IMG/VR virus record: IMGVR_UViG_3300030109_003574
Location: 5,382-55,715 of that record
Length of the DNA stretch: 50,334 bases
Source: a virus
Reading direction: 5' to 3' (one strand)
In this document: in pieces, positions 7,113 to 37,254 of the stretch
Position numbering within the stretch: the first letter of the stretch is position 1
How the letters are laid out: every line of letters starts with the position of its first letter
Program-made: the position numbers and the translations under genes
The notes under the pieces: generated by a model
What the model saw: only the letters and a program-made list of their open reading frames with translations
Told to the model about the DNA's origin: nothing
The model's database searches: none

Positions 7113-7344
7113 AGCAGTTGAGGAGTTAATCAACGTTGCAAAAGAAAAAATTATTACTAACACAGAAGACGATGTTAGTGCAGATAGATTAAAGAACGCT
7201 GCAGCTACTAAAAAGCTAGCTATATTTGATGCGTTTGAAATACTTAATAGAATTCAAGAAGAAGAAAATATGCTTGATGGTAAAGCACCTGAAGAAAAAA
7301 AGGATAAAGTATTCAAAGGATTCGCAGAAGGAAGATCTAAGTAA
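7066..7344 (+). CDS. Probable terminase small subunit or packaging accessory
   Basis: A 92-residue mostly helical charged protein directly before the large terminase and joined to it by a TAATG overlap. The open frame extends upstream to 7015, but ATG 7066 gives a protein starting MNIKETKKLIIQAG and avoids more overlap with the preceding gene. Helices at about 4-28 and 38-66 (DRLKNAAATKKLAIFDAFEI) with a Lys-rich tail fit small DNA-recognition terminases in size and position, although a helix-turn-helix is not obvious. The call rests largely on location. Confidence 0.5.
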   Translation: MNIKETKKLIIQAGHKAVEELINVAKEKIITNTEDDVSADRLKNAAATKKLAIFDAFEILNRIQEEENMLDGKAPEEKKDKVFKGFAEGRSK

Positions 7345-9557
7345 TGTATAAACAAAGTTTAGTTAAAACAATAGAACCTATTAAAAAAACGACTATTAGT
7401 CGTCTTAATAAATCTAAAAAATGGAAATATGGATACAATAAAGAACATGATATCGTGGTTATCTCTAAAACTGGTAAAATTGGACAAGTGGTGGAGATTC
7501 AAAATTTGCGAATTGGGCTGCCGGCTGAACCGAAATCAGTGTACATGCACCCCAAAGGTAAATGGCAAAAAATAGAGTACCCAAAAGAATTATCAAAACT
7601 TAAAAATATATTTGACTGGAGAGCTTATCCAGAAGACCAAAAAGAAAAATGGTTTGAATATATAGACGAAGAATTTAAACGTAGAGAAGAAGGTTTTTGG
7701 TTTATAAATAACAATAAACCAACTTATATAACAGGTACACATTATATGTACCTACAGTGGAGTAAAATAGATGTAGGTGCACCAGATTTTAGAGAAGCAA
7801 ATAGGTTATTCTATATATTTTGGGAGGCTTGCAAAGCTGATAAAAGATGTTATGGTATGTGCTACCTTAAAAACAGAAGATCTGGTTTTTCTTTTATGTC
7901 TTCAGCTGAAACAGTTAATTTAGCTACAATATCGAGTGATAGTAGATATGGTATACTTTCTAAAACAGGTGCTGATGCTAAAAAAATGTTTACTGACAAA
8001 GTTGTTCCAATTAGTATAAACTACCCTTTCTTTTTCAAACCAATACAAGATGGGATGGATCGTCCTAAGTCAGAGCTAGCATACAGGGTACCAGCTAGTA
8101 AATTTACCAGAAAAAAAATAACAGCAAACGAGCAACTAGAAGATATACAAGGATTAGATACTACTATTGACTGGAAAAACACAGGTGACAATAGTTATGA
8201 CGGTGAAAAATTAAATCTACTTGTTCATGATGAAAGTGGTAAATGGGAAAGACCCGATAATATATTAAATAACTGGCGAGTAACAAAAACATGTTTGCGA
8301 CTAGGTAGTAGAATAGTTGGTAAATGTATGATGGGCTCGACCTCAAACGCTTTAGACAAAGGTGGAGAAAACTTTAAAAAATTATATAACGCATCAGACG
8401 TCACAAAAAGAAATAGAAATGGTCAAACAAAGTCTGGTTTATACTCTTTGTTTATCCCAATGGAGTGGAACTACGAAGGATTTATTGATGAGTACGGAGT
8501 TCCAGTCTTTAATACTCCTAACACAGATGTGCTCGCACCAGATGGTGAATTAATAGACGTAGGCGTAATTGATAGTTGGCAAAATGAAGTTGATGGATTA
8601 AAAGGAGATTCTGACGCACTAAATGAATTTTACCGCCAGTTTCCAAGAACAACTGAACATGCTTTTAGAGACGAGGCAAAAGGAAGTATATTTAATCTTG
8701 TAAAAATATATGAGCAAATAGACTATAATGAAGAAATGTCTAGAACTCTTGGTATTACAACTGGTAATTTTCAATGGGTTAGCGGTATAAAAGACACACA
8801 AGTGATATTTTACCCAGATCCAAAGGGTAGGTTTAAAGTAAGTTGGGTTCCACCTCAACAATTACAAAATAGAGTGGTTGTTAAAAACGGAGTGAAATAT
8901 CCTGGTAATGAACACATGGGGGCATTTGGTTGTGACTCTTATGATATATCAGGAACTGTAGATGGAAAAGGATCTAAAGGAGCACTACACGGCTTAACCA
9001 GGTTTAGTATGGAGGACGCTCCTGCGAACAGCTTTTTTTTAGAATACTTATCAAGACCACCTACAGCTGAAATATTCTTTGAGGATGTTTTAATGGCTTT
9101 AGTTTTTTATGGCATGCCTATATTAGCGGAAAACAACAAGCCTAGACTTTTGTATTATTTAAGGCGTAGAGGTTATAGAGGTTATAGTATGAACAGACCT
9201 GATAAAGTTTGGAATAAATTATCTACAGCAGAAAAAGAAGTTGGTGGTATACCAAACTCAAGCGAAGATATTAAACAAGCACATGCAGCCGCTATTGAAA
9301 TGTATATTCAAGGTCATGTAGGCATGCAGCAAGATGGTACTTTTGGCAATTTATATTTTAATGAATTGTTAAATGACTGGAGTAGGTTTGATATTACAAA
9401 AAGAACAAAGTTTGATGCAACTATAAGTAGTGGTTTAGCTATTATGGCTAATAACAGACACCTATATGCGCCAAACGCAAAGGTTGAAAAACCAAAACTA
9501 AATATAAGTATTTCTAAATATAGAAACACTGGAACAAATTCACAAATAATTAAATAA
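7344..9557 (+). CDS. terL: Terminase large subunit (TerL)
   Basis: A 737-residue DNA-packaging motor of the T4 gp17 type: ATPase plus RNase H-like headful nuclease. Seen: a PTYITGTHYMYLQW adenine-binding region (about 125-140), a degenerate Walker A in KNRRSGFSF (about 174-182), Walker B LLVHDE with D296 and E297, a coupling motif GSTSN (about 333), then the nuclease with acidic residues D531 (FGCDSYD), the FFEDVL segment and D691 (FDATISSG). The length is normal to slightly long. It docks on the portal encoded immediately downstream. A patch at about 7490-7560 uses codons (CTG, CCG, CGA, GGG) unlike the rest of the gene. Highly confident. Confidence 0.93.
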   Translation: MYKQSLVKTIEPIKKTTISRLNKSKKWKYGYNKEHDIVVISKTGKIGQVVEIQNLRIGLPAEPKSVYMHPKGKWQKIEYPKELSKLKNIFDWRAYPEDQKEKWFEYIDEEFKRREEGFWFINNNKPTYITGTHYMYLQWSKIDVGAPDFREANRLFYIFWEACKADKRCYGMCYLKNRRSGFSFMSSAETVNLATISSDSRYGILSKTGADAKKMFTDKVVPISINYPFFFKPIQDGMDRPKSELAYRVPASKFTRKKITANEQLEDIQGLDTTIDWKNTGDNSYDGEKLNLLVHDESGKWERPDNILNNWRVTKTCLRLGSRIVGKCMMGSTSNALDKGGENFKKLYNASDVTKRNRNGQTKSGLYSLFIPMEWNYEGFIDEYGVPVFNTPNTDVLAPDGELIDVGVIDSWQNEVDGLKGDSDALNEFYRQFPRTTEHAFRDEAKGSIFNLVKIYEQIDYNEEMSRTLGITTGNFQWVSGIKDTQVIFYPDPKGRFKVSWVPPQQLQNRVVVKNGVKYPGNEHMGAFGCDSYDISGTVDGKGSKGALHGLTRFSMEDAPANSFFLEYLSRPPTAEIFFEDVLMALVFYGMPILAENNKPRLLYYLRRRGYRGYSMNRPDKVWNKLSTAEKEVGGIPNSSEDIKQAHAAAIEMYIQGHVGMQQDGTFGNLYFNELLNDWSRFDITKRTKFDATISSGLAIMANNRHLYAPNAKVEKPKLNISISKYRNTGTNSQIIK

Positions 9558-9561
9558 TAGT

Positions 9562-11982
9562 ATGGCATATTCTGGCACTAAAAATTATTTTCCAAGTCAA
9601 ACAGTAAGCGATGTTGAAAAGCTAAGCTATGATTATGGTTTAAAGGTAGGTAAGGCTATAGAGCAAGAGTGGTTTAATGAAACTAGAAGTCTTAATAGAT
9701 ACGGTGCAAATAAAAATGATTTTCACAACCTAAGACTATACGCTAGAGGCGAGCAATCAATACAAAAATATAAGGATGAGTTATCTATAAATGGTGATTT
9801 GTCCTATTTAAATTTAGACTGGAAGCCAGTACCTATTATATCTAAGTTTGTAGATATAGTTGTAAACGGTATTGCAGAAAGAACTTATGATATAAAAGCA
9901 TATTCACAAGATCCTTATGGTGTGGCTAAAAGAACTAAGTATATGGAAGATATACTTAAAGATATGAGGTTAAAACAATTTAATGACGTTGTTCAAGATC
10001 AACTAAATTTAAATGTTAGAAAAAGTGAAATAGAAGAACTTCCAGAAAGTAAAGAAGAATTAGAGCTTCATATGCAGCTTGGTTATAAACAATCAATAGA
10101 AATAGCAGAAGAACAGGCTTTAAACACTCTTTTTGAAGGTAATAAATATGAGCTTATTAAAAAACAGTTTTATTATGATCTTACTGTTTTAGGCATTGGC
10201 GCTGTTAAAACTGATTTTACTACATCAGAAGGAGCTACTATTAAATATGTAGACCCAGCTAATTTAGTTTACTCATATTCTGATTCGCCTTATTTTGACG
10301 ATATATATTATGTAGGTGAAGTTAAATCTATACCTGTTAACGAATTAGCAAAACAATTTCCTCACTTAGATGAAGCTGAACTTGAGGATATTATGAAAAA
10401 TAAAAGAATTAATAGGAAAAACTACAACGAAAGATATTCTTCTGACAAAGAAGACAATAACACTATTCAGGTTTTATATTTTAATTATAAAACTTATATG
10501 AATGAAGTTTATAAAGTAAAAGAAACTGCAACTGGCTCAGAAAGAATAATACCAAAAGACGATTCTTTTAACCCACCAGCTGATAAACAACGTGATTATA
10601 AAAGAGTATTAAGATCAATAGAGTGTTTGTATGACGGAGCTATGATACTTGGTACTAATAAGCTCCTTAAATGGGAAATGGCAAAGAACATGATGAGGCC
10701 AAAAAGTGATTTTACAAAAGTTAAGATGAATTATGCTATTGTAGCACCTAGGATGTATAACGGTAAAATAGAATCACTTGTTAGTAGAATAACTGGTTTT
10801 GCTGATATGATACAGCTAACACATTTAAAACTTCAACAGGTGTTGTCTAGAATGGTGCCTGATGGTGTTTATTTAGATGCAGATGGTTTAGCTGAAATAG
10901 ATTTAGGTAATGGTACTAATTATAATCCACAAGAAGCTTTAAACATGTTTTTCCAAACTGGTTCTGTAATCGGTAGGTCTTTTACTCAAGAAGGTGATAT
11001 GAATCCAGGTAAAGTGCCAATACAAGAGATAACTTCAGGATCTGGTGGTAATAAAATGCAAGCACTTATAGGTAACTATAACTATTACTTGCAAATGATA
11101 AGAGACGTAACTGGCTTGAATGAAGCTAGAGATGGTAGTATGCCAGATAAAAATGCTTTGGTTGGTGTACAAAAACTAGCGGCAGCAAATAGTAACACTG
11201 CAACAAGACATATATTACAAGCAGGTTTATATTTAACCGCGGAAGTTGCTGAGTCTTTATCTCTTCGTATTTCTGACATTATAGAATATTCACCAACAAA
11301 AGATGCTTTTATACAAGCTATTGGAGTTCACAATGTTTCTGTTTTAGAAGAACTTAAACAATTGCACCTTTATGACTTTGGTATTTTTATCAACTTACAG
11401 CCAGATGAAGAAGAAAAAATGATGCTGGAAAACAATATACAAATGGCAATACAACAGCAAATTATAGAATTAGCTGATGCTATTGATATTAGAGAAACAA
11501 AAAACATAAAGTTGGCAAACCAATTACTTAAGTTGCGTAGAAGTAAAAAGTTAAATAGAGATCAAGCTCTTCAAGAGCGTAATATACAAATGCAAGCGCA
11601 AGCTAATCAACAAGCATCTCAAGCGGCTGCACAACTAGAAGTTCAAAAAAATATGGCTTTAACAGAAAGTCAAGTTCAATTAGAACAAGTAAAAGCGCAG
11701 TTAGAATCTCAAAAAATGATGCAAGAAGTTGAAATGAAAAAACAATTAATGGGATTAGAGTTTCAGTTTAACATGCAGTTAAAAGGTCTAGAAGTGCAAG
11801 GCCAACAAATAAAAGAACAAGAAAAAGAAGATCGTAAAGACGAAAGAACAAGAATACAAGCCACACAACAATCAGAACTTATAAATCAAAGAAATACTGG
11901 TGGTATGCCTAGAAACTTTGAGTCTGGAGGTAACGATATATTAAATGGCCAGTTCAACTTAGGTAGTTACGATCCTAAATAA
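9562..11982 (+). CDS. Portal protein
   Basis: An 806-residue dodecameric DNA-channel protein, assigned by position between TerL and the scaffold and by its typical layout: an N-terminal charged region, FVDIVVNGIAERTYDIKAYS (wing/crown beta region), a central GIGAVKTDF...YVDPANLVYS segment characteristic of large podovirus/crAss-like portals, and an extended C-terminal helix/coiled coil from about residue 640 that becomes Gln-rich at 670-765. The Gln-rich tail could line a barrel reaching into the capsid. Length is at the large end for portals. It begins four bases after the TerL stop. Confidence 0.85.
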   Translation: MAYSGTKNYFPSQTVSDVEKLSYDYGLKVGKAIEQEWFNETRSLNRYGANKNDFHNLRLYARGEQSIQKYKDELSINGDLSYLNLDWKPVPIISKFVDIVVNGIAERTYDIKAYSQDPYGVAKRTKYMEDILKDMRLKQFNDVVQDQLNLNVRKSEIEELPESKEELELHMQLGYKQSIEIAEEQALNTLFEGNKYELIKKQFYYDLTVLGIGAVKTDFTTSEGATIKYVDPANLVYSYSDSPYFDDIYYVGEVKSIPVNELAKQFPHLDEAELEDIMKNKRINRKNYNERYSSDKEDNNTIQVLYFNYKTYMNEVYKVKETATGSERIIPKDDSFNPPADKQRDYKRVLRSIECLYDGAMILGTNKLLKWEMAKNMMRPKSDFTKVKMNYAIVAPRMYNGKIESLVSRITGFADMIQLTHLKLQQVLSRMVPDGVYLDADGLAEIDLGNGTNYNPQEALNMFFQTGSVIGRSFTQEGDMNPGKVPIQEITSGSGGNKMQALIGNYNYYLQMIRDVTGLNEARDGSMPDKNALVGVQKLAAANSNTATRHILQAGLYLTAEVAESLSLRISDIIEYSPTKDAFIQAIGVHNVSVLEELKQLHLYDFGIFINLQPDEEEKMMLENNIQMAIQQQIIELADAIDIRETKNIKLANQLLKLRRSKKLNRDQALQERNIQMQAQANQQASQAAAQLEVQKNMALTESQVQLEQVKAQLESQKMMQEVEMKKQLMGLEFQFNMQLKGLEVQGQQIKEQEKEDRKDERTRIQATQQSELINQRNTGGMPRNFESGGNDILNGQFNLGSYDPK

Positions 11983-18200: not shown

Positions 18201-21200
18201 ATGCCAGAAATAAAGCATAATTTTACCGGTGGTAAAATGAACAAAGATCTTGATGAAAGACTTGTTCCAAACGGAGAGTATAGACATGCTGAAAACGTAC
18301 AAGTGTCAACTTCAGATGATTCAGACGTTGGTACAGTACAGAATATTTTTAGCAACCGTAAAATAAGTGGTTATTTTCAAGATCAATTTTTAGGTAATGA
18401 TAAATCTTGCGTGGGTAGTATTGCTGACGAAAAAAACAATGCTGTTTATTGGTTTTTAACTGCTGGTGATGTAGCAGACATATCAAATGCTGTAATGAAT
18501 TATGATTTTACTTCAGGCAGTAGTTCTAATAATATGCCATATTTTGATATGTTAACTGAAGGTTCTTCTATAATGGAATATAAATCAGATAGCTCTCCAC
18601 AGGTGAGACCTGTTGTAGTAGAAGCTTCAAAAGTTATATTGCCTTTGCAAAATTATTTTCAACTATCTGTTGTGACCCAGCAGGGGATAGCATTAACAAC
18701 TTATCCAATATTTTTTGCTGGACAACAAGATTCTGTATTAGCAGGTATGAACTTAACAACAGTATATGTTTTACAAAATACTTGGTCTTCAGGAACAGTA
18801 CCTGTTGTAACAAATACTCTTGATTTTTCTTCTGGTTTTAATTATACGCCACTAGTAGGTGTTTCTCCTCCTGGTGGTCTTTTTAGTCCAAACCCACCTT
18901 ATGTTGTTGGTAATATTCAAAACGGAATTCAATTAAGTAATATGCCTGATACTTTATTAGCAGAAATTACTGCTGGCTCAATTTTAGCTTTTGAATTTTC
19001 ATTTAGTATTGACGCATATAAACTTCCTTTAAATTTTCAATCAAACAATATTATAACTGGAATAAACATTATTGACGATATGTTATTCTGGACTGATAAT
19101 TATAATGAACCTAAAAAAATAAATATAACTAGATGTAAACAAGGAACACCTTCTATAGGTAGCTCTTTTTACGGTTTTACTAGGCTAATAAATGAAAGAA
19201 CTAATATTACTGTTAATGATAATATACCATTAGAAGAAAAACACGTTACAGTTATTAGAAAACCACCTAGCAAAGCGCCAGTTTTAAATTTAAAAACAGG
19301 TAGAGATTACAGTGGCGTAAACAATCCTTTACCACAAGTGTATACAGGTGTAGTAACAGTAGGTTTAGACGCTTCTCCAAACCCTAATAATAATGACGAT
19401 ATACTTGACACTAGTAGTAGTTTCAATACTGATCCTTATGATTTTTCAGGTGTAAATATAGGCGATACTGTAGAACTAAGAATACAAGAAGACGTATATG
19501 GTAATGATTTAACAACTGGTGGTTTTGAACTTATTGAGTGGGCTGTTGGTAAAAAAGTTGTTTTAAAAGAGTATGAGGAGCTTTCAAGTACAACACCAGA
19601 GCCACCACCAATACCTATAACTGATTATAGAATTAAAGGTGAGATAATAGGTGCGCCAACTGGATTTACAGCTTCTGCTGGTAACCCAATAATTGTTGAA
19701 ATAGAAATAACAAACATAGACGGATTTCCGCCTGGTGCTGATCCTAATTTAGGATATAGAAAATATGCTATTGACTTATTTGATACATACGAAAAATTAT
19801 TTGAGTTTAAGTTTCCTAGGTTTGCTACTAGATATAAATATAGTGACGGAGAGTACTCTACTTATTCACCTTTTACGCAAGTAGCTTTTTTACCTGGTAC
19901 TTTTGATTATCATCCTAAAAAAGGTTATAATTTAGGTATGACAAATAGAATAACTCAAATTGACGTAGTTAATTTTAGATTAAATGATACTCCTTTAGAT
20001 GTTGTTGAAATAGACATATTATATAAAGAAGATGGCTCACCAAATGTATATGTTGTAGATACAATACAAAAAGACTCTGTTGATGATTACTGGGATGCAG
20101 ATTTATATACTATAACACACGAAACTATAAAAGCTACAATTCCATCAAATCAACTTTTAAGATCTTGGGATAACGTACCTAAAACAGCTTTAGCACAAGA
20201 AATTACCGGTAATAGAATTGTTTATGGTAATTACACACAAGGGTGGGATGTTTTTGATTTAGCTGGTAATCCTTATTCACCAAGTTTTAAGTGGCAAATA
20301 CTTGATAGTAGTTCTTTTTTAAGCTGGGACAACTATCAGACAGATGCTATAAAATCTATAAAGTCTTTAAGAGAATATCAGCTTGGTGTTGTTTTTATAG
20401 ATGAATATGGTAGAGAAACTCCTGTTATATCAAATCCTTCTGGAACTTTTGAAGTTGATTATTCAAGGGCTGCCGAAAACAATAGGTTAAGAGTAGGTTT
20501 TCAATCTGATCCACCTAGAAATCAAAAATATTATAAATTTTATATAAAACAAACTTCCGGAGAGTATTATAATTTAGCAATGGACCGTTGGTATGATGCT
20601 GAAGATGGTAACATTTGGTTGTCATTTCCTTCTTCTGATAGAAATAAAATTGATATAGATACTTTTTTAGTTTTAAAGAAAGCTGCTGAAACTAACGATC
20701 CCGTAGCTACTAAGTCAAGGTATAAAGTTTTAGCAATAGAAGATAATGCTCCTGATTTTGTAAGAACAAAAGTAACAAAATTAGTTAAAGCAAAACACAC
20801 AAACACCGCAAACTCTGTATTTTTACCAAACACTACTAATAATGCACCCGTTTCAGGTACAGATACTTTTGAAATGAATTATAATTTTTTTGGTAATTCT
20901 TCTGGCAGTAGATTACATGAGATAGATGATGGTGAGTTGTACTTTTCTTTGTCGTTACAAGGTTCTACTGTTGAAAGTAATAGATATAGAATAGCATCTA
21001 TAACTACTAATGCGTTTGATGGGTCAAGTGTTACTGATCCTAAATATTTTATTAAAACAGATAAGTTTTTAGAAGACGACGTAAATTTTGCAACAGATGA
21101 TCCTTCTGGTGCTTTTTCAACCGAAATACAAGACAATGTTAATATAAATATTTTTAAATATAAAGTTGAAAATTTACCTATATTTGATGGTAAGTTTTTT

Positions 21201-24200
21201 GTTAAAATATATATTGACGATACATTTAAAAATTACATATCACAAAGTACTACGCAAAGCGAAGAGTGGAGAAGAGTAGCTTCTAAGACTATATACTCTA
21301 TGAGATCTAACCACGACCAAACACACGGACCAAAACCAACAGGTCACGGTGAAGAGCCGGTTAGTGGTGCTAAATCTGCTTATAGTACAGCTTTTGGTAG
21401 ATTTGCTTGTTATTTTAGAAGATATGATTATGGTAATAAAGAAATGCCTACTATAGCTCCATCCGGAACTTTAAACTTAAGTACTTCTAAATACAGGTTT
21501 AACTCTCCTGGAAATAACAACACAAACTTTACCGCTAATAATCCAGCGCCTTGGTATTCAGAGTGGTATGAGTATACTGGTTGGGGAAACAGTATAGGTG
21601 GTACAAATGTTTATTATGATACTTATGATGATGCTAGTGCTTTAGATTATTTTCAAAGTAACAAACAAGCAGATCAGTTTGCCAAAAAAGATGAAGTTTG
21701 GTTTTTAGATATGTACAGACATGTAGATAAAGTAACAAACACAGCAAACTCAATAATATGGAATAATTATCCATCTTCTAATGCAAATCCATTTACAAGT
21801 GTTGGTAGCACAATGTCTGGTGGTAATACAGTACCGCCTCCTGTAGATGGAGGAGCTGCTAGTGGTGGTAATACTACTTGGCATCATTTTAGATTAACAT
21901 TAGGTCCTATATTAAATAAAGTTATTAAAAATAACGACGCTTGGGCCGCATCAGCACTTGACCAAAGTAATGATGAAGGTATATTAAACGCAACATTAGA
22001 TCCAGTTAATGGTTTAGTAAGTTCTAATTTTTTTGCTATTGGTACGGGTAACGTAAATTATCAAGATCCATCAACAACTAATTTTACAGATAGACTTAAC
22101 CCTGGTAATACTTGGAGATGGGCTGAAGATCCAAAGAAAACTCAATACAACCTTAACCAACAAGTTAATGAGTCAAACTTAATAAGATATAGATCTGACG
22201 GTGGTACTTCTGGTGCTGGAAATATATTAAGAAATGATAAAATATCTGATGAAAGATTTGGTGCTACGCAGCTTTCTGTTAACTTTAATAAACGATGGGC
22301 CTGGGTACAAGAGCATGACAACGTTTCTTCTAATGGATTAGATTGGATACCTGTTGATAGTGGTAATCAATCGGGCATAGGACCTATAACTGGTAACGGT
22401 ATAAAAACAATTTTAAGAACAGCTATTCCATCTAACTCAGAACACCCGTATGGAAACCACGATGAAATAGGAGAAGACAACGGAGATGTTACAACCACAG
22501 GAACTTGTACTGGTATAGATGAACATTATATTGTTGTTACTAATGATTCTTTTGAAACCGCAACAGATCAAAACGGTAATCCATGTAGAGTTATACCTGG
22601 TTTTATAATTACTAACTTTACAAACGCTAGTGGTGCTACAACTTCATTACTGGCTAATTCAACAACAGATCCTTTTTTAGTTGTTAGAGATGTTAGTGAT
22701 CCTTTTGTTTATAATTCTGTTTTTTGTAGAAGAATATATTTAACAGGTTATGTTGAAGCTTTAGATATTGCACACACTATAACTATTGATCCAGACACTG
22801 ATGTTACTTTTAAACAGGCAACTATGAATGGTTATAGTCCAAATTCTGCCGCAAGAATTAGTTTGCAAAAAAGCACAACTGGTTTAGGTGCTTTTACAAA
22901 TACTACTTTATCGGGAGTTTCGCTTGCTAACGTTGCGGCAGCAACAACAAATTTATTGTATGCGGTTGGATATACTATGGAATTTATACAGCCTTCTTAT
23001 GACAACGAAGTTTTACCTGAAAATCCAGCCATATGGGAAACGGAGCCAAAAGACACTCCAGAACTAGATGTTTATTATGAAGCAAGTGATTTAATACCTA
23101 TTGAGCTAACTGAAGATACAGATTCTGGGTTTTTACCATTAACAGACGAAACTACAGGTTCTTCTAGTTTAAACATAGGTACTTTTTTAAACTGTACAAT
23201 ACAAGCTGGCCCAAGTATAACTGGCTTTACAATACCTTCAAACACAGAAGTAATAGATGTTCAAGAAAATGTTTTAATACTATCTCAAACACCTATAGGT
23301 GTTGGTGGTAATGCAATAGCAATTGGTAGTTCTGATTATGTACATATAAAAAAGCCAGATGGTAGTATTTTTTCAACTCGTGTTGAATCTATAAGTAACA
23401 ACGAGTTAACTATAGACGCGTTTACTTGGCAGCATTATCATACTTTGAACTGGCACAATTGTTATTCTTTTGGTAACGGTGTTGAATCTGACAGAATTAG
23501 AGATAATTTTAATTTACCTTTTATATCTAACGGTGTAAGAGCATCTTCTACTTTAGATGAAAAAATAGAAAAAGAAAATAGAAGATATGGGTTAATATTT
23601 TCTGGCATATATAACGATGTTACTTCTTTAAATGAGTTAAATCAATTTATATCTGCTGAAAAAATAACAAAAGAAATAAATCCAATATACGGTAGTATTC
23701 AAAAGCTACACTCAAGGTCAACTGCAGATGGTGATTTAATTACTTTGTGTGAAGATAGAGTATTAAAAATACTAGCTACTAAAGACGCTATATTTAACGC
23801 AGATGGTAATCCTCAATTAACAGCTAATGTAAATGTACTTGGACAAACAATACCTTTTGTTGGCGAATACGGTATATCTCAAAATCCAGAATCATTTGCT
23901 TCTGAATCATATAGAGCTTATTTTACAGATAAACAAAGAGGCGCGGTTATGAGATTATCTAGAGATGGTTTAACTCCAATATCTGATCATGGCATGAAAG
24001 ACTGGTTTAGAGATAATTTAAAACTAGGTGAAAAACTTATTGGTAGTTATGATGATAAAAAAGATGAATACAATATAGCTATAAAAACACCTGAAGATAC
24101 TACTTTGCCAGAATATGTAGTTTCTTTTAGAGAAGATATGAGAGGTTGGGTTAGTTTTAAATCTTTTACTGAAATAGAAAGTGGAGTTAGTATGGCTAGC

Positions 24201-24614
24201 AATTATTACACTTTTAAAGATGGTAAAATATTTGAACACCATTATGAAAATAACGGGTTTAATACTTTTTATGGCAGACAACATCCTTCTAGTATACAAG
24301 TTTTGTTAAACGAAATGCCTGACACTGTAAAAAGTTTTAAAACTTTGTCTTACGAGGGCTCACAAGCTAAAATAACTCAAGACTTAGATGATAATCAATA
24401 TTTTAATCTACAAGCAGAACAAGGTTGGTTTTTACAAGATATAAATACTAACTTGCAAGTTGGTCAAAATGTAGAGTTTATAGAAAAAGAAAACAAATGG
24501 TTTAACTACATTAAAGGTGTTGAATCTGATGTTATAGAAGAAAAAGATTTTACATACCAAGGTATAGACGTAGTAAGTGTTTCTCAACTAAGAATAAATA
24601 ATAATTCAAATTAA
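18201..24614 (+). CDS. Giant tail stabilisation/muzzle-type protein
   Basis: A 2137-residue virion protein. The N-terminus KHNFTGGKMNKDLDERLVPNGEYRHAENVQ is the hallmark of the tail-stabilisation or muzzle proteins of marine podoviruses and crAss-like phages. It is beta-rich throughout, with long Ser/Asn/Thr-rich linkers, a central RLINERTNITVNDNIPLEEKHVTVIRKPP segment, and a C-terminal third containing DKQRGAVMRLSRDGLTPISDHGMKDWF (about residues 1910-1935), a pattern of tail-tip proteins that gate DNA. Family members are often half this length, so inserted domains around residues 900-1700 probably account for the excess. No signal peptide. It likely forms the tail tube end below the rings. 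Confidence 0.72.
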   Translation: MPEIKHNFTGGKMNKDLDERLVPNGEYRHAENVQVSTSDDSDVGTVQNIFSNRKISGYFQDQFLGNDKSCVGSIADEKNNAVYWFLTAGDVADISNAVMNYDFTSGSSSNNMPYFDMLTEGSSIMEYKSDSSPQVRPVVVEASKVILPLQNYFQLSVVTQQGIALTTYPIFFAGQQDSVLAGMNLTTVYVLQNTWSSGTVPVVTNTLDFSSGFNYTPLVGVSPPGGLFSPNPPYVVGNIQNGIQLSNMPDTLLAEITAGSILAFEFSFSIDAYKLPLNFQSNNIITGINIIDDMLFWTDNYNEPKKINITRCKQGTPSIGSSFYGFTRLINERTNITVNDNIPLEEKHVTVIRKPPSKAPVLNLKTGRDYSGVNNPLPQVYTGVVTVGLDASPNPNNNDDILDTSSSFNTDPYDFSGVNIGDTVELRIQEDVYGNDLTTGGFELIEWAVGKKVVLKEYEELSSTTPEPPPIPITDYRIKGEIIGAPTGFTASAGNPIIVEIEITNIDGFPPGADPNLGYRKYAIDLFDTYEKLFEFKFPRFATRYKYSDGEYSTYSPFTQVAFLPGTFDYHPKKGYNLGMTNRITQIDVVNFRLNDTPLDVVEIDILYKEDGSPNVYVVDTIQKDSVDDYWDADLYTITHETIKATIPSNQLLRSWDNVPKTALAQEITGNRIVYGNYTQGWDVFDLAGNPYSPSFKWQILDSSSFLSWDNYQTDAIKSIKSLREYQLGVVFIDEYGRETPVISNPSGTFEVDYSRAAENNRLRVGFQSDPPRNQKYYKFYIKQTSGEYYNLAMDRWYDAEDGNIWLSFPSSDRNKIDIDTFLVLKKAAETNDPVATKSRYKVLAIEDNAPDFVRTKVTKLVKAKHTNTANSVFLPNTTNNAPVSGTDTFEMNYNFFGNSSGSRLHEIDDGELYFSLSLQGSTVESNRYRIASITTNAFDGSSVTDPKYFIKTDKFLEDDVNFATDDPSGAFSTEIQDNVNINIFKYKVENLPIFDGKFFVKIYIDDTFKNYISQSTTQSEEWRRVASKTIYSMRSNHDQTHGPKPTGHGEEPVSGAKSAYSTAFGRFACYFRRYDYGNKEMPTIAPSGTLNLSTSKYRFNSPGNNNTNFTANNPAPWYSEWYEYTGWGNSIGGTNVYYDTYDDASALDYFQSNKQADQFAKKDEVWFLDMYRHVDKVTNTANSIIWNNYPSSNANPFTSVGSTMSGGNTVPPPVDGGAASGGNTTWHHFRLTLGPILNKVIKNNDAWAASALDQSNDEGILNATLDPVNGLVSSNFFAIGTGNVNYQDPSTTNFTDRLNPGNTWRWAEDPKKTQYNLNQQVNESNLIRYRSDGGTSGAGNILRNDKISDERFGATQLSVNFNKRWAWVQEHDNVSSNGLDWIPVDSGNQSGIGPITGNGIKTILRTAIPSNSEHPYGNHDEIGEDNGDVTTTGTCTGIDEHYIVVTNDSFETATDQNGNPCRVIPGFIITNFTNASGATTSLLANSTTDPFLVVRDVSDPFVYNSVFCRRIYLTGYVEALDIAHTITIDPDTDVTFKQATMNGYSPNSAARISLQKSTTGLGAFTNTTLSGVSLANVAAATTNLLYAVGYTMEFIQPSYDNEVLPENPAIWETEPKDTPELDVYYEASDLIPIELTEDTDSGFLPLTDETTGSSSLNIGTFLNCTIQAGPSITGFTIPSNTEVIDVQENVLILSQTPIGVGGNAIAIGSSDYVHIKKPDGSIFSTRVESISNNELTIDAFTWQHYHTLNWHNCYSFGNGVESDRIRDNFNLPFISNGVRASSTLDEKIEKENRRYGLIFSGIYNDVTSLNELNQFISAEKITKEINPIYGSIQKLHSRSTADGDLITLCEDRVLKILATKDAIFNADGNPQLTANVNVLGQTIPFVGEYGISQNPESFASESYRAYFTDKQRGAVMRLSRDGLTPISDHGMKDWFRDNLKLGEKLIGSYDDKKDEYNIAIKTPEDTTLPEYVVSFREDMRGWVSFKSFTEIESGVSMASNYYTFKDGKIFEHHYENNGFNTFYGRQHPSSIQVLLNEMPDTVKSFKTLSYEGSQAKITQDLDDNQYFNLQAEQGWFLQDINTNLQVGQNVEFIEKENKWFNYIKGVESDVIEEKDFTYQGIDVVSVSQLRINNNSN

Positions 24615-30105: not shown

Positions 30106-33100
30106 ATGAACGAATATTACAGCGTTGACGGTGTTACATATCGAATTACTTCTATTGAAGAAAAAAACAGACTTTTAAATAAGTTTCCAGATGCTATTTT
30201 AGTTAGTCGTGACCCTGTTGTGTCTAATGTTCCAAGTATTCCAGAAATTAAAGAGCTTAATTGGTTTGACGAGGTGTTTAAAGATTCTTGGTTTGGTAGA
30301 GGTAAACTGCAAGCTAGTACAACGGGTGAGTCTTTTAATTTATTAATGGAAGGCTCTCAAGTAACTTCAGAGTCTATAAATAATCTTATAGAAGCTACAA
30401 AATCTCAAAACTTAAACTATGTGCCTTCCCAAAGAATGAGGAAATTTCAAGAAAATTACCAAAAAAGAGGTGGTAGTTGGTGGGCTTTTGCTAAAGGTGT
30501 TTCAGAAGATCCTATGTTACTAGCAGAACTTTTTACTCAATCTTTAGGTACTCAAGTTGGTACTCTTTATGACTCTGAAGAAGCTCAAATAGCTACTGGA
30601 GCTGCATTTTTATCTACTTTTACAGGTAGTATGGCTTTGTCCAAAGGAGATTTAAGAGCAAAAGTTATTAAATCAGGTGGTCGTGGTTTGATGGTAGCAC
30701 AAGGTACACTTGTTTCGATAATGGAAAGCTCTTTAACGTTTTCGGAGTTAATACAAGAAGAGTTAAAAAAATCAAACGAAAACTGGACTGACGAAAATTT
30801 TGATGAATGGTTTACAGAAGAAAACATTAGAAATCTTTTAACTGGTTCACAAGGAAGTAGTATAAGATATAAGGCTATTGGAAGAGGTTTAACAATTGGT
30901 ACTATAGAAGCATTAACTACCGGTATTGCAGGAAAAGCAGTAACACGTACTTTAAGTAAACCAGGTAGAGCCACAAAAGTAAAAGCAATAGCAGCTGGAG
31001 CTGGTGTTGAAATGATTGGTGGTGGTACTGGTGAGGTAGCTGGTAGATTTGTAGCTGGTCAAGAAATGGATCCCGCTGAAATAGGTTTTGAAACTGTAAC
31101 TGGTTTAACTTCTACACCAATTTCTGTTTTGTATGGGCTAGGTACTTATAAAAAACCTGTGTATACGTTGAATAGTAATGAAGTTACGTTTGAAGAAATG
31201 AAAGACTTTATTGATAATGCAGATGATATTGATATTGCAAAAGCTAATATCAAAATGGAAAACGATATGACTGGCTTAAATGTAAAGGCTTATAAAAAAC
31301 AAAGTAGAGCTATTATAGAACAATCTATTGATGAAAAAATAACAGATAAAAAAGATAGAGAAACTTTAATAGAACTAGAAACAGAAAGACAACAGTTGTT
31401 ATCAGACAAAAAGAAAGAAGGAGCAGCACAATCAGTAGGAAATAAGCAAAACTTAGAGCGTGTGGAAAATGAAATATCAGCTATTATAGACAAATATGCT
31501 GGTGCTGTTGGTATTTTTAAAACAGAACAAGGGGCAGCTATATTACAAAGAAGAGGTGAAATAGCGTTAGATGAAACAATAAAATTTCTTGAAACTAATA
31601 AAAAGTTTGTTGGTAAAGATGTTGTTGTAGGTGAAGATATAAACGAAACTCAAAACGCATACAGAAAAGCAGCTGAAGAGTACAATAGAAAAAATCCTAA
31701 TGAAAAACAATATGATATAAACAAAGATATTACTAAATCAGATGGATTTGTTGTTGGCGATGTTATTGTTATTAATAAGCCTATAGCTGGTTTAACAGGT
31801 CAAATTAATGTTGGTGCGCATGAGCTTTTGCACGGTATTATAACAAAACATTTTAATTCTTTAGACACTAAAGGTAAAACAAAACTTATAACTGACTTTA
31901 GAAATACTATATCAAAAGAATCTGATGCTTATATATTAAAAGAATTAAGACGTAGAAAAAAAGCTGGCGAAACTGATTTAAATTTAAATACAACACAAGA
32001 GTGGTTAACTGTATATTCTGATGGTATAACTAAAGGTGAGATAACTTTTAACGAGAGTATTTCTGTAAAACTTAAAAACTTTTTACAAAATATATTTAGA
32101 AAATTTACATATAACAAAGAGTTTACAAGTGGTTTGGATACATATAACTTTATGCGTGGTTATCAAAAAAGCGTTGCCAAAGGTGGTGTTATAAGTAAAA
32201 GAGCCCAAAGAATTGCTGGGGGAGGCGCTGTCACTACAGAAGTTTTAGAGTCAAGATCAAAGGCCGCTGAAGCTGTTAATAAAATAGAACAACGTTTAAA
32301 AAACAAACTAAAGCAAGAAGGTAGAGATTATACTCAAGAAGAATTTAGAAAAAGTGATGAATTTAGAGATATATTTGATTCTGTAGTTGAGCCTGGTGGA
32401 GCTATAAACAATTACATTAAAAGTCTTGGCATGAGCCCAGAAAAGACTAAAAAAGTAATACAAAACGTTTCTGACAGGTTAATGAATTATAACCCGCAGG
32501 CAAAAAGAAAAACTGGCAGCAAAGAAGCTATAACTATTGGCGAGCAAATAATGTCTAGCACTATGTTTGGTAAGTTGGATGCTGCTAAAGAATTAGCTAC
32601 AAAAAGTAAAAAAGAAGGCAAAACAGTTAGAATAGACGCTGCAAAAAGAACTAAAGAAGGTGATACAACATTTGATATAGAAGACACAAGTACTCAAAAT
32701 GTTTTTTCAGAAACTGAAGATATATCTCTTGAAGCACAAGCTAGAGAAAAAGCAGATAAAGAAGCTGGCAAAACTAGAAAAACATCTAAACTTAGAAGAA
32801 AAATTGGTATAGAGACCGGAGGAAAAATATATAATTCAGTTTTAGACGCTGCTCGTCAAGCATTATTAAAAGCATATGAAGCGGGAACGTCAGTTAGAAA
32901 TATACAAAGAAAACTAAGAGATCAAGCTAGTGGTTATTTATTTAAAGAAATTAAAAACTTTTTAGGAACTAAAACATATGTTAGTAATTTAAGAAAGTTT
33001 GGTGAAGCTATTTTTGACTCTTTATTTACTGCTGATTTAGTGCAGTTAGAAAAAAACGTTCCTGATGATCAAAGAGTTTTTACTGAATTTGAAGAAAAAT

Positions 33101-36100
33101 TAACTAGAAAAGGTGATGTTGAAAAAGCTGTAAACGATGGTAGATTACCTCCAGAAGCAATAAATACTTATGATAGAGATAAGTCTGTTAACGTTTACAA
33201 AAAGAAAAAATATAATGAAGAAAAGTGGATGGCTTTCTTTGATATACCAACTATTAACCCGGTAACAGGTGCTAGATCTGGTAAAAGAGGAACTAGAAAA
33301 GATACTTTATCTAGACTATTATCTGGGTCACTTGCTTTTGATGCTATTCCACAGGTTGCTAGAGAACCAGAAGTTATAAAACGAAGAAAAGAGTTTGCTG
33401 AAATAAAAGGAGAATCTGATGCTATAAATAGCTTAGAACAATTAGCTGCTGAGATACATAGGCAAAAAGATATTGATTTTAGTTTTTCTGATTTATCACA
33501 GGCACAGAAAAACAAAACTGCTTTTTATTTTGAAGATGCTGCAAACAATTTATCTGGAATAGGACAACAGTTTGCAACAATAATAAGTGGATTATTAAAT
33601 GACGGTATTGATATACAAGAAGCTTATTTAGTTGCAAAAGAAAACACCGGTATTGATAGTGATGCTTTAGATATAATATTCAAACAAGGTAATTTTAACA
33701 AATCACATGTTGAAAATATAAAGTTTGGTATTAGTAAGTTTGGAGTAGCTAAAGTTAGAAAACTAGGGTACGATGCTTCTATAAAATATATTTCAAGACA
33801 ACTACAAGGAGTTAGAAGTTTAACAAAAAAAATAGAAATTATAAATGATTTTCTTGTAAATATAGGTAGATCAGCTAGAACAGCTGCTTTTATTGATAAA
33901 CTAACTAATATTACTAGTAATGAGTCTTTATTATTTGATTTTATTGACAAGCTTGGTGATGAACAAATTAGTAAAACATATAACTTGCAATCAGCACCTA
34001 TAAAAGGTAAAAGAATAGTATATACAGATCCTAGTACGAACACTGTGAAACCTGTGCCAATGTACGAAAATATTGAAAAAATAAAAAACAATGCTTATAA
34101 AAGTCAGGCAATAAGAGATAATATTAAAAAAGAGGCAAAGCTAGCTAGAGATTATATTGTTAAAATAATTAGCGACAAAACACTAAGTAAAGCAGAAAAA
34201 AAAGCTATAATAAAACTAATGGGTCAAGACCAAAGAGGAGCTTTAAGAAAATCTTTTAACCTAGGTATGTATATAGATCGTAATAAATTAGATTTAAATT
34301 CTGAGCAGACTATATTAGAACATGAATTAACTATTAGTGATACTACAAAAAAAATAAATGATGTTATTGATAATAACAAATCAATTGATGAATTAAGAAA
34401 AATTCTTGAAAGATCTCAAGTTCATATATTACCAAAACGTTTAGATAATATACTAACTAAAGAAGGTTTAAAGTATAAAGGTAGTTTTGAAAGATATCAA
34501 AATAAAAAGTTTAAAACAGAATTAAAAAAATTAATTGATAATGGTTCAATTAAAAACGTTCCAGTTGATATATTATTTAAAGAAAAAATAGATTTAAATA
34601 AAAAATCTAAAGCTGTATTACAATCTAGATCTGCTAATAAAGAAACAAAAGGTATTACTATTTTAGATTTTGATGATACTTTAGCTACAACAAAATCAAT
34701 GATTAAATTTGTTAGACCTGACGGTACTAAAGGAAAGTTAAACGCAGAGCAATATGCTAGTACTTACGAAGATTTATTAGGAAAAGGATATACATTTGAT
34801 TTTTCTGAATTTAATAAAGTTGTTGATGGTAAAAAAGCACCATTGTTTAATAAAGCTTTAAAGTTACAAAACAAATTTGGACCAGAAAATATGTTTGTTT
34901 TAACTGCTAGACCTCCTGAATCTGCTAAAGCAATATATAACTTTTTAAAATCTAACGGTCTTAATATACCGTTAAAAAATATCACAGGACTTGCGAACTC
35001 TACTGCAGAAGCAAAAGCACTTTGGGTTGCAGATAAAGCGTCTGAAGGTTATAATGATTTTTATTTTGCAGATGACGCTTTACAAAACGTACAAGCTGTA
35101 AAAAACATGTTAGATCAATTTGATGTTAAATCTAAAGTACAGCAAGCAAAAGTTCAGTTTAGTAACTCTATGGATAAAAGGTTTAATGATATATTAGAAG
35201 ATATAACAGGTATTGAATCTAAAAAAAGATTTGACACGGTAAAAGCTAGAAAGCGTGGAGAGAAAAAGGGTAGATTTAGATATTTTGTACCACCTTCACA
35301 CGAAGATTTTATAGGTTTATTATATAATTTTTTAGGCAAAGGTAAAAAAGGTGATGCAAATAGAAGTTTTTTTGAAGAAACATTAATTAGACCTTTAAAT
35401 AGAGCTTTTAGAGAAATAGACATGGTAAGACAAAGTGTTGCTAATGATTTTAAATCTTTAAATAAAAAACTTTTTCCTGATGTTAAGAAAATGCTTAATA
35501 AAGCAACACCTGATGGTGATTTTATATATGAAGATGCAATAAGAATTTATATATGGAGTAAACATGGTTATGAAATACCTGGTCTTTCTGCAATTGATCA
35601 AGAAAGACTAATTGATCTAGTATATGATAATGATGCTTTATACAATTATGCAGAAACACTAGATGCAATATCAAAGCAAGAAGCTTATGTACAACCTCAA
35701 GATGGTTGGGAAGGTGGAAATATAAGAACAGATTTAGACGAAGCTACTGGTAGAATAGGTAGAAAAAAACATTTAACTGAGTTTCTTGAAAACACAAGTA
35801 TAATTTTTTCAAAAGAAAATTTAAATAAAATAGAAGCTGGATTTGGTAAAGAAATGAGAGATTCTATAGAAGATATGCTTTATAGAATAGAGACTGGTAT
35901 AAATAGACCAAAAGGATCTAATGGAACTGTTAATAAATTTATGAACTTTTTAAATGGTTCTGTTGGTAGTGTTATGTTTTTTAATATGAGATCTGCTTTA
36001 CTACAGCAAATGTCTATTGTTAACTATATAAACTTTGCTGATAATAATATTTTTGCAGCAGCTAAAGCGTTCGCAAATCAAAAACAATTTTGGAAAGACT

Positions 36101-37254
36101 TTGATTTTATATTTAATTCTGATATGTTAAAACAAAGACGTGGTGGTTTAAGAACTGATATAAATGCATCAGAACTTACTGAAACTCTTGGTAAATCTAG
36201 ATATCCAATAAGGGTAGTTATAAATAAATTATTACAACTTGGTTTTAAACCAACACAAATTGGTGATAGTATTGCTATATCAATTGGTGGCGCTAGTTAT
36301 TATAGAAATAGAATTAACACTTATTTAAAACAAGGTTTAACATTAGAAGAAGCTGAAACAAAAGCTTTTACTGATTTACAAGATACAACACAATCTACGC
36401 AGCAGTCTTCTAGGCCAGATATGGTTTCAAAACAACAGGCTTCTTGGATAGGTAAAGTTATATTAAATTTTCAAAATGTTACATCACAGTACAATAGAAT
36501 AGTTAAAAAAGCAGCTTCAGACATATATAATGGAAGAATAACAAAACCTAACAGTACTTTGTTACAGAGTAACATTTCTAACGCAGCAAGAATAACTTAT
36601 TATTTTGGTATACAAAACCTTATATTTTACACATTACAAAACGCTTTATTTGCAATGTTATTTGATGATGAAACAGAAGAAGAAAATGAGTTGTTTTTAA
36701 AGAAAAAAGATAGAGTAATTAATGGTACTATTGATAGTGTGTTAAGAGGTTCTGGTATTACAGGCGCTATTTTATCTACTTTAAAAAATACATATATAGC
36801 TTATCAAAGACAGAGAGATGTTAATTATAATCCAGATGAAAGTGCTGTTTTAATGGAAGCTTTAAACTTTTCACCTGTAGTAGGTATTAAGGCTAGAAAA
36901 GTTACAAATGCAGAAAAAACTCTTAATTATAACAAAAAAGTTATGGAAGAAATGGAAACTTTTGATATTGATAATCCAATGTATTCTGCATATACAAACT
37001 ACATAGAAGCTTTTACAAATTTACCTTTAAATAGATTATACAACAAAACTCAAAACTTAAGACAAGCATTTAATAACGAGCATGAAACTTGGCAAAGAAT
37101 GATGATGTTTTTTGGTTGGAGTCAATATAATCTTAACATACAAAATGAAAAAGTAGAAAATATAAAAGAAGAAATAAAAACTAAGAAAAAGATTAAAAAA
37201 ACAAGAAATAGAAAATTAACTCCTAGTGAACTTTATGAATTACAAAGAAGGTAA
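30106..37254 (+). CDS. Giant ejection/polyvalent protein with HExxH and HAD domains
   Basis: A 2382-residue virion protein. Residues 1-360 hold a helical region with a Gly/Ala-rich hydrophobic hairpin (about 285-345) that could insert in membranes. A metallopeptidase-like motif H572-E-L-L-H576 follows. A HAD phosphatase domain spans about 1515-1680 with D1521/D1523 in DFDDT (motif I), T1600 in LTARPP (motif II) and D1656-D1657 in FADD (motif IV). The C-terminal 700 residues are helical, including MFFNMRSALLQQ and a hydrophobic SNAARITYYFGIQNLIFYTLQNALFA-like segment near 2160-2190. The layout resembles T7 gp16-type ejection proteins and the multi-enzyme polyvalent proteins of phages. Probably injected with DNA, digesting or modifying host targets. 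Family confident, enzyme targets unknown. Confidence 0.75.
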   Translation: MNEYYSVDGVTYRITSIEEKNRLLNKFPDAILVSRDPVVSNVPSIPEIKELNWFDEVFKDSWFGRGKLQASTTGESFNLLMEGSQVTSESINNLIEATKSQNLNYVPSQRMRKFQENYQKRGGSWWAFAKGVSEDPMLLAELFTQSLGTQVGTLYDSEEAQIATGAAFLSTFTGSMALSKGDLRAKVIKSGGRGLMVAQGTLVSIMESSLTFSELIQEELKKSNENWTDENFDEWFTEENIRNLLTGSQGSSIRYKAIGRGLTIGTIEALTTGIAGKAVTRTLSKPGRATKVKAIAAGAGVEMIGGGTGEVAGRFVAGQEMDPAEIGFETVTGLTSTPISVLYGLGTYKKPVYTLNSNEVTFEEMKDFIDNADDIDIAKANIKMENDMTGLNVKAYKKQSRAIIEQSIDEKITDKKDRETLIELETERQQLLSDKKKEGAAQSVGNKQNLERVENEISAIIDKYAGAVGIFKTEQGAAILQRRGEIALDETIKFLETNKKFVGKDVVVGEDINETQNAYRKAAEEYNRKNPNEKQYDINKDITKSDGFVVGDVIVINKPIAGLTGQINVGAHELLHGIITKHFNSLDTKGKTKLITDFRNTISKESDAYILKELRRRKKAGETDLNLNTTQEWLTVYSDGITKGEITFNESISVKLKNFLQNIFRKFTYNKEFTSGLDTYNFMRGYQKSVAKGGVISKRAQRIAGGGAVTTEVLESRSKAAEAVNKIEQRLKNKLKQEGRDYTQEEFRKSDEFRDIFDSVVEPGGAINNYIKSLGMSPEKTKKVIQNVSDRLMNYNPQAKRKTGSKEAITIGEQIMSSTMFGKLDAAKELATKSKKEGKTVRIDAAKRTKEGDTTFDIEDTSTQNVFSETEDISLEAQAREKADKEAGKTRKTSKLRRKIGIETGGKIYNSVLDAARQALLKAYEAGTSVRNIQRKLRDQASGYLFKEIKNFLGTKTYVSNLRKFGEAIFDSLFTADLVQLEKNVPDDQRVFTEFEEKLTRKGDVEKAVNDGRLPPEAINTYDRDKSVNVYKKKKYNEEKWMAFFDIPTINPVTGARSGKRGTRKDTLSRLLSGSLAFDAIPQVAREPEVIKRRKEFAEIKGESDAINSLEQLAAEIHRQKDIDFSFSDLSQAQKNKTAFYFEDAANNLSGIGQQFATIISGLLNDGIDIQEAYLVAKENTGIDSDALDIIFKQGNFNKSHVENIKFGISKFGVAKVRKLGYDASIKYISRQLQGVRSLTKKIEIINDFLVNIGRSARTAAFIDKLTNITSNESLLFDFIDKLGDEQISKTYNLQSAPIKGKRIVYTDPSTNTVKPVPMYENIEKIKNNAYKSQAIRDNIKKEAKLARDYIVKIISDKTLSKAEKKAIIKLMGQDQRGALRKSFNLGMYIDRNKLDLNSEQTILEHELTISDTTKKINDVIDNNKSIDELRKILERSQVHILPKRLDNILTKEGLKYKGSFERYQNKKFKTELKKLIDNGSIKNVPVDILFKEKIDLNKKSKAVLQSRSANKETKGITILDFDDTLATTKSMIKFVRPDGTKGKLNAEQYASTYEDLLGKGYTFDFSEFNKVVDGKKAPLFNKALKLQNKFGPENMFVLTARPPESAKAIYNFLKSNGLNIPLKNITGLANSTAEAKALWVADKASEGYNDFYFADDALQNVQAVKNMLDQFDVKSKVQQAKVQFSNSMDKRFNDILEDITGIESKKRFDTVKARKRGEKKGRFRYFVPPSHEDFIGLLYNFLGKGKKGDANRSFFEETLIRPLNRAFREIDMVRQSVANDFKSLNKKLFPDVKKMLNKATPDGDFIYEDAIRIYIWSKHGYEIPGLSAIDQERLIDLVYDNDALYNYAETLDAISKQEAYVQPQDGWEGGNIRTDLDEATGRIGRKKHLTEFLENTSIIFSKENLNKIEAGFGKEMRDSIEDMLYRIETGINRPKGSNGTVNKFMNFLNGSVGSVMFFNMRSALLQQMSIVNYINFADNNIFAAAKAFANQKQFWKDFDFIFNSDMLKQRRGGLRTDINASELTETLGKSRYPIRVVINKLLQLGFKPTQIGDSIAISIGGASYYRNRINTYLKQGLTLEEAETKAFTDLQDTTQSTQQSSRPDMVSKQQASWIGKVILNFQNVTSQYNRIVKKAASDIYNGRITKPNSTLLQSNISNAARITYYFGIQNLIFYTLQNALFAMLFDDETEEENELFLKKKDRVINGTIDSVLRGSGITGAILSTLKNTYIAYQRQRDVNYNPDESAVLMEALNFSPVVGIKARKVTNAEKTLNYNKKVMEEMETFDIDNPMYSAYTNYIEAFTNLPLNRLYNKTQNLRQAFNNEHETWQRMMMFFGWSQYNLNIQNEKVENIKEEIKTKKKIKKTRNRKLTPSELYELQRR

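Follow-up and report, generated by a model that had tools for sequence, protein, structure and literature searches.

A giant virion-type phage protein combining a zincin-like metallopeptidase region with a conserved HAD phosphatase domain

The giant gene, its locus and its relatives

What might a protein of 2382 residues do that is encoded at the end of a phage structural block and appears to carry both a protease and a phosphatase? The gene lies at 30106..37254 (+ strand) of the window, by which we mean the whole stretch of 50,334 nucleotides analysed here, from an IMG/VR virus record of 56,057 bases. It is an ATG-initiated ORF without an internal stop; we call its product P0001. The first-pass annotation described an ejection protein with HELLH at residues 572-576 and the HAD residues D1521/D1523, T1600 and D1656/D1657, and a script check of P0001 found the ORF and every one of these residues where they had been placed (HELLH at 572, DFDDT at 1521, LTARP at 1599, FADDA at 1654). 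A Pfam scan of the whole of P0001 gave no match, and tblastn against named phages at 1e-5 found no close relative; at E 10 there was a single short match, in MW202828. P0001 has no hydrophobic segment that would suit a membrane channel, the highest mean over 19 residues being 1.26.

The window phage is a marine podovirus of the Bacteroidetes type and kin of the Elemovirus and Cellulophaga phages. Its terminase large subunit (7344..9557, +, identified by profile match and by a search of phage records) matches 87 of 50,697 phage records, namely those of 68 Flavobacterium, 15 Cellulophaga, two Tenacibaculum and one Maribacter phages plus the unassigned MW202828, with an identity of 63% to MW202828 and below 60% to all others. 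The structural block runs from the terminase through the portal protein (9562..11982, +, profile match), virion proteins, a muzzle-like virion protein of 2137 residues (18201..24614, +, crAss_MUZ_C match), fibre and small proteins and a 628-residue protein to the giant gene, which is the last of the block. The label "ejection protein" would follow from this position and from the annotated structural proteins of relatives.

Three side observations concern the rest of the record. A run of ten Ns directly before the window (L065:5372-5381, record G000) interrupts groEL, and the groEL ORF in the window (205-1332) spans only profile positions 144-537 of 540; because of the N run and the partial profile coverage, the truncation seems to reflect a scaffold gap and not a gene loss. 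Upstream of groEL (L065:2241-5145) lies a row of small lysine-rich proteins, several with similar starts. A ribonucleotide reductase (phrog_367) is encoded at the window end (48392-50266, - strand).

Giants also occur downstream of the muzzle-like gene in Elemovirus, phi38:1, phi13:2 and Gundel_1, where they are deposited as "structural protein", and in MW202828. HExxH is present in Elemovirus gp21 (elemoA; 3694 residues), the MW202828 giant (3859 residues) and Gundel_1 gp74 (Gundel_74; 2482 residues), and is missing from phi38:1 gp101 and phi13:2 gp127. The termini of Gundel_74 and of the MW202828 giant are partly homologous to P0001: an alignment of the family's HAD and C-terminal regions matches residues 2115-2333 of Gundel_74 at E 3.5e-11 in a five-sequence search, and BLASTP of P0001 against the MW202828 giant gives 35% identity over 80 residues. 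The N-terminal region of P0001 (residues 64-482, 30295..31551, +) matches phrog_32588, as does the MW202828 giant. A guess from similar length that phrog_32588 represents phi38:1 gp101 was discarded, since phi38:1 gives no match and MW202828 does. Unlike P0001, the giants of Elemovirus, MW202828 and Gundel_1 have no detectable HAD motif, and motif I was found in none of the five cultured or named syntenic giants; the HAD domain is therefore dispensable in the wider group. The MW202828 giant (L067) has two HEFGH motifs, at residues 1615 and 2500.

Relatives of P0001 were collected in four samples, which overlap and over-represent near relatives. A search of IMG/VR with P0001 gave 63 loci and a search of MAG contigs with the HAD alignment gave eight; the third sample consists of the 80 best among at least 587 related stretches that the C-terminal alignment found in IMG/VR; and from a search with a wider HAD alignment (the fourth sample; 568 of 599) the best 80 were again taken. 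Given the at least 587 related C-terminal stretches, the family is common. The first three samples, when pooled, hold 151 ORFs with the C-terminal region, counting the window's copy. Leaving out the window there are 130 distinct pooled ORFs, in two of which the HAD region is cut off, hence n=128 for the motif counts given below.

Of 152 loci, about 140-150 can be aligned over the HAD domain and the C-terminal half and about 90 over the zincin region, while residues 901-1440, within a variable region (residues 762-1490, 32389..34575, +), align in only 11-36. Column identity, averaged over one set of 23 sequences, is 80% for the HAD domain and 61% for the next 470 residues, compared with a mean of 17% across the mostly N-terminal stretches of alignments A4 and A5. 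These differences in coverage and identity indicate that the C-terminal half is constant and the N-terminal half a mosaic. The HAD domain and the C-terminal region occur together wherever neighbouring DNA is present; the ORFs with one of them alone (L064, L135, L216 and L218) reach the end of the retrieved DNA.

The metallopeptidase-like region and the polyvalent proteins

The zincin-like metallopeptidase region (residues 452-761, 31459..32388, +) was modelled by AF2 with a mean pLDDT of 82.5. Its HELLH (31819..31833, +), located by motif search and alignment, corresponds to an HExxH kept in 111 of the 116 ORFs of at least 2000 residues. The exceptions are L110, L111, L113, L120 and L133, of which L111, L113 and L133 retain a weak match to the zincin profile. 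Among the 63 IMG/VR relatives 61 have the motif, and in both others (L006 and L048) the ORF runs past the start of the locus. The L053 protein has a second HExxH (HEAFH) close to its N-terminus, at residue 59.

A candidate third zinc ligand, E632 (31999..32001, +), is an invariant position beyond those named in the first-pass annotation. In alignments A4 and A5, which were not anchored on the motif, the two histidines and the glutamate of HExxH and the downstream Glu are invariant in 45 relatives against the mean identity of 17%, the Glu lying 62-65 residues further on (60 in P0001). Since HE..H defined the cut of alignment A3, part of its H/E/H invariance is built in; A1, A4 and A5, all unanchored, agree with it. 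In the model, H572, E573, H576 and E632 are carried by helices 118-133 and 181-191, the arrangement of a polyvalent-type zincin, with an HEXXH helix and a Glu on the next helix. Catalytic competence of the zincin is thus predicted with considerable confidence.

A lethal-factor/ArdC-like fold is among the top rows of the structural comparison for this region. The model superposes on the protease region of lethal factor at Z 5.5 (rmsd 4.5, 161 residues aligned), with PPEP at Z 4.7 (rmsd 4.3, 147 aligned) and with ArdC at Z 2.7 (rmsd 4.6, 111 aligned); Foldseek against the PDB returned nothing for the zincin model at E ≤ 0.001. Lethal factor is also the match reported by Iyer et al. for the zincin associated with the N4 RNA polymerase, in the part of that paper covered here (PMC5512222).

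The C-terminal helical region (residues 1724-2350, 35275..37155, +) has structural matches to phage polyvalent proteins. With the combined HAD and C-terminal model, 43 BFVD structures were matched at E ≤ 0.001, the first four of them sequence relatives (32-67% identity) and most others phage proteins at 9-16% identity, several bearing the names "large polyvalent protein associated", "PolyVal ADP-Ribosyltransferase" or MuF. The TM-scores relative to the query are middling, for the most part about 0.3-0.5, from a model of mean pLDDT 64.4 that is weak in places, and Foldseek against the PDB gave nothing for it at E ≤ 0.001. LPD14 was matched weakly (E 0.0054) in one of 17.

The likeness to polyvalent proteins that the first-pass annotation had proposed is borne out by the late structural position of the gene, the lethal-factor/ArdC-like zincin fold, the BFVD names and an insert resembling ART-PolyVal in one relative, below the Pfam cut-off. 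A zincin and a HAD domain stand in one large ORF, encoded amid virion and packaging genes. We therefore predict, as a probable assignment, that P0001 is a polyvalent virion protein.

The HAD domain and the kinase nested within it

The HAD phosphatase domain occupies residues 1508-1704 (34627..35217, +). It contains motif I, DFDDT (D1521, D1523 and T1525; 34666..34680), motif II, LTAR (T1600 and R1602; 34900..34911), motif III, K1637 (35014..35016), and motif IV, D1656-D1657 (35071..35076), all on the + strand and placed by alignment, which is the full superfamily set of DxDxT, T, K and DD. Together with N1661 these nine residues are invariant in 26 diverse sequences, and K1637 is a further invariant position that the first-pass annotation had not named. 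Motifs I, II and IV are present in 127 of the 128 distinct relatives, the exception, L082, being degenerate with the motifs lost. The first-pass annotation had made its catalytic assignments depend on conservation in orthologues, and for the HAD residues as for HExxH they stand.

All 63 of the IMG/VR relatives from the P0001 search read DFDDT or DLDDT at motif I. In the second sample 24 of 75 read DFDET, with both Asp kept; an apparent loss of motif I in these was an artefact of the search pattern. Likewise, motif IV seemed to be missing from L030 and L053, and the motif region from L021, as an artefact: inserts had made the cut length too short. From the conserved catalytic set, we regard a competent HAD enzyme as very probable.

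The first-pass annotation had suggested nucleic-acid ends or nucleotides of host defence signalling as substrates; several results favour the former, and we found no evidence for the latter. By itself the HAD domain reaches DUF2608 at the Pfam cut-off. Its PHROG match is phrog_415, annotated "polynucleotide kinase" (E 3.3e-6), and covers almost the full domain (residues 5-179 of 198); the phosphatase half of T4 PseT matches the same PHROG at 3e-24. Of the four other family HAD domains scanned, two match phrog_415 weakly (L079 at 0.00064, L076 at 0.005) and two, L093 and L115, give no match. Compared directly, the HAD domain and T4 PseT show weak similarity, with probabilities of 4% and 10% by hhalign, motif I alone being aligned, and E 0.02 by hmmsearch against the single sequence; a search of PDB sequences with the HAD profile found no HAD.

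The Rossmann-like HAD fold is present in the model, a modest-confidence one with pLDDT blocks mostly at 55-79 over the HAD part, and HAD phosphatases occur throughout the list of fold matches, many other HADs scoring about equally. The best row is Nir2 LNS2 (Z 8.0, rmsd 2.8, 87 aligned), tied at the top with the T4 Pnkp 3'-phosphatase (Z 7.9, rmsd 2.9, 120 aligned), Pnkp1 (Z 7.5, rmsd 3.5, 127 aligned) and the unrelated transporter KimA (Z 7.7, rmsd 3.2, 108 aligned); all rows of this VIA comparison lie at Z ≤ 8, a range that a common arrangement can reach.

A P-loop kinase of about 200 residues is nested inside the HAD domain in nine of 150 HAD-bearing ORFs (L030, L053, L079, L080, L106, L108, L114, L156 and L160), and in all nine it enters at one exact site between motifs I and II. 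A matching P-loop pattern was seen in three further ORFs, from the fourth sample. The nested kinase matches AAA_33 and Zeta_toxin, and all three of the nine ORFs that were scanned with PHROGs match phrog_505, which in the PHROG scan is the family of T4 PseT itself. Its profile finds PezT first in the PDB; T4 Pnk and Pnkp1 are also listed, as are 4gp6/4mde, entered as "Metallophosphoesterase", which we take to be C. thermocellum Pnkp. The window protein has no fused kinase domain of the Pnkp type.

Other inserts were seen near the domain. An ART-PolyVal-like stretch (L021:14690-15145, and L095 from the same contig) occupies the kinase site and scores 20.1 bits, the cut-off being 31.2. Behind motif IV, some 439 residues are found at L117:7555-8871 (same contig as L043) and L108:7555-8871, and a module of ~140 residues at L081:3925-4338 and L140:8362-8799, the L140 copy matching phrog_16075. 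In the L082 ORF a stretch that looks similar to this module (residues ~1700-1850) precedes the HAD domain, from which motifs I and IV have been lost.

Could the kinase be zeta-toxin-like, acting on cell-wall sugars and unlinked to the HAD domain, which would then lose its Pnkp connection? The Zeta_toxin match is strong (E 2.6e-14), PezT is the leading structure, one BFVD relative is named UDP-N-acetylglucosamine kinase, and zeta-like kinases are listed among polyvalent-protein domains in the part of PMC5512222 covered here. Against this, the single insertion site inside the HAD domain in nine ORFs, the phrog_505 matches (7.5e-13 to 6.6e-8) and the match of the HAD domain to phrog_415, which is independent of the kinase, make such a kinase unlikely, though it is the best of the alternatives.

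Less likely still is a polyvalent virion protein whose HAD domain acts on small molecules such as nucleoside monophosphates or the nucleotide products of defence signalling. Many HAD phosphatases act on nucleotides, class C acid phosphatases appear in the fold list at Z ~6, and injected signal-degrading enzymes have been proposed for phages in the part of PMC7824862 covered here; the best profile match, however, is a polynucleotide kinase/phosphatase PHROG, and it is a kinase of the T4 PseT/AAA_33/zeta class that some relatives have nested in the same domain. For the HAD domain we tentatively predict a Pnkp-like substrate, the 3'-phosphate ends of nucleic acids, at somewhat under an even chance.

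A possible function and its known counterparts

Our best explanation as a whole, a virion-packaged polyvalent protein that unites a zincin and an end-healing, Pnkp-like phosphatase, is offered with reserve, as the leading candidate but not yet a favourite over all others combined. The steps we infer for it, from packaging and ejection through self-cleavage to the phosphatase activity and its substrate, would run as follows. As a late product, the giant protein would be packaged into the head or tail and would enter the host together with the DNA. The zincin might then cut its own polypeptide or host proteins, freeing or activating enzymes, as the literature on polyvalent proteins suggests. The HAD domain, presumably an active Mg-dependent phosphatase, would most likely strip 3'-phosphates from broken RNA or DNA in the manner of the phosphatase half of T4 Pnkp, and in some relatives it would be coupled to the nested P-loop kinase, which could phosphorylate 5' ends. 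The probable purpose would be to heal, during the first minutes and before phage gene expression, breaks that host nucleases make, be it by anticodon nucleases or by restriction.

Of ligases, none was found in the window's record. Among 25 records searched, PF01068 was matched over the cut-off in four, RtcB (PF01139) was not found, and RNA_ligase PF09414 occurred in two, G006 and G018, where it overlapped the PF01068 match.

That the giant is chiefly an assembly or ejection-channel protein, with a protease that matures the virion and a HAD domain fixed as an accessory in assembly or DNA packaging, would suit the C- and N-terminal regions shared with giants that lack HAD, the constant pairing of HAD and C-terminal region, and the zincin-like peptidases proposed for phage virion maturation (PMC7824862, in the part covered here), but is improbable given the near-absolute constraint on the catalytic HAD residues and the mosaic kinase and ART-like inserts, which suit effectors better.

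The packaged end-healing protein has several partial counterparts. In crAss001, according to the part of PMC10172136 covered here, large cargo proteins, including RNA polymerase-related ones, are packed in the head and tail behind the muzzle and ejected; the window phage likewise has a muzzle-like protein, with the crAss_MUZ_C match, and the likeness of P0001 to that cargo is one of description. The polyvalent proteins, as the covered part of PMC5512222 describes them, resemble P0001 in being giant and multidomain, in their HEXXH zincin with a downstream Glu, in their late-gene position, in an ART-like module (found in a relative of P0001) and in a C-terminal fold named polyvalent. They differ in that no HAD, polynucleotide phosphatase or HAD-nested kinase is listed among their domains in that part; the words phosphatase and haloacid are absent from the main text.

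PNK-HAD phosphatases are known from phage RNA repair, usually behind an N-terminal kinase, as stated in the covered part of a survey of jumbo phages (PMC7824862). In the open-licence papers searched we found neither a virion-borne PNK-HAD version nor, well known as polyvalent proteins are, one in which an end-processing HAD phosphatase is the most conserved module.

The nearest enzymes are T4 PseT (Pnkp) and Pnkp1 of the Pnkp1-Rnl-Hen1 complex, which like P0001 contain a HAD phosphatase. T4 PseT has its P-loop kinase in the same polypeptide, as do some relatives of P0001, and the PHROG profiles phrog_505 and phrog_415 are common to both. In T4 PseT, however, the kinase is N-terminal to the HAD domain, whereas in the relatives of P0001 it lies inside it and in the window protein it is lacking; the HAD domain of P0001 sits in a giant virion-type protein, unlike that of T4 PseT, and pairwise similarity is weak. 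It is a doubtful but attractive prospect that a common marine phage group injects a ready-made enzyme for healing nucleic-acid ends (a phosphatase, which in some members has the kinase nested within it) that its own built-in protease sets free; tRNA or DNA breaks inflicted by host defence would then be repaired as soon as the phage enters, without waiting for its genes to be expressed. T4 PseT and Rnl1 are a known late counter-measure against anticodon nuclease. If the Pnkp reading of P0001 is true, a counter-measure of this type would shift to the moment of injection, a prediction that is directly testable.
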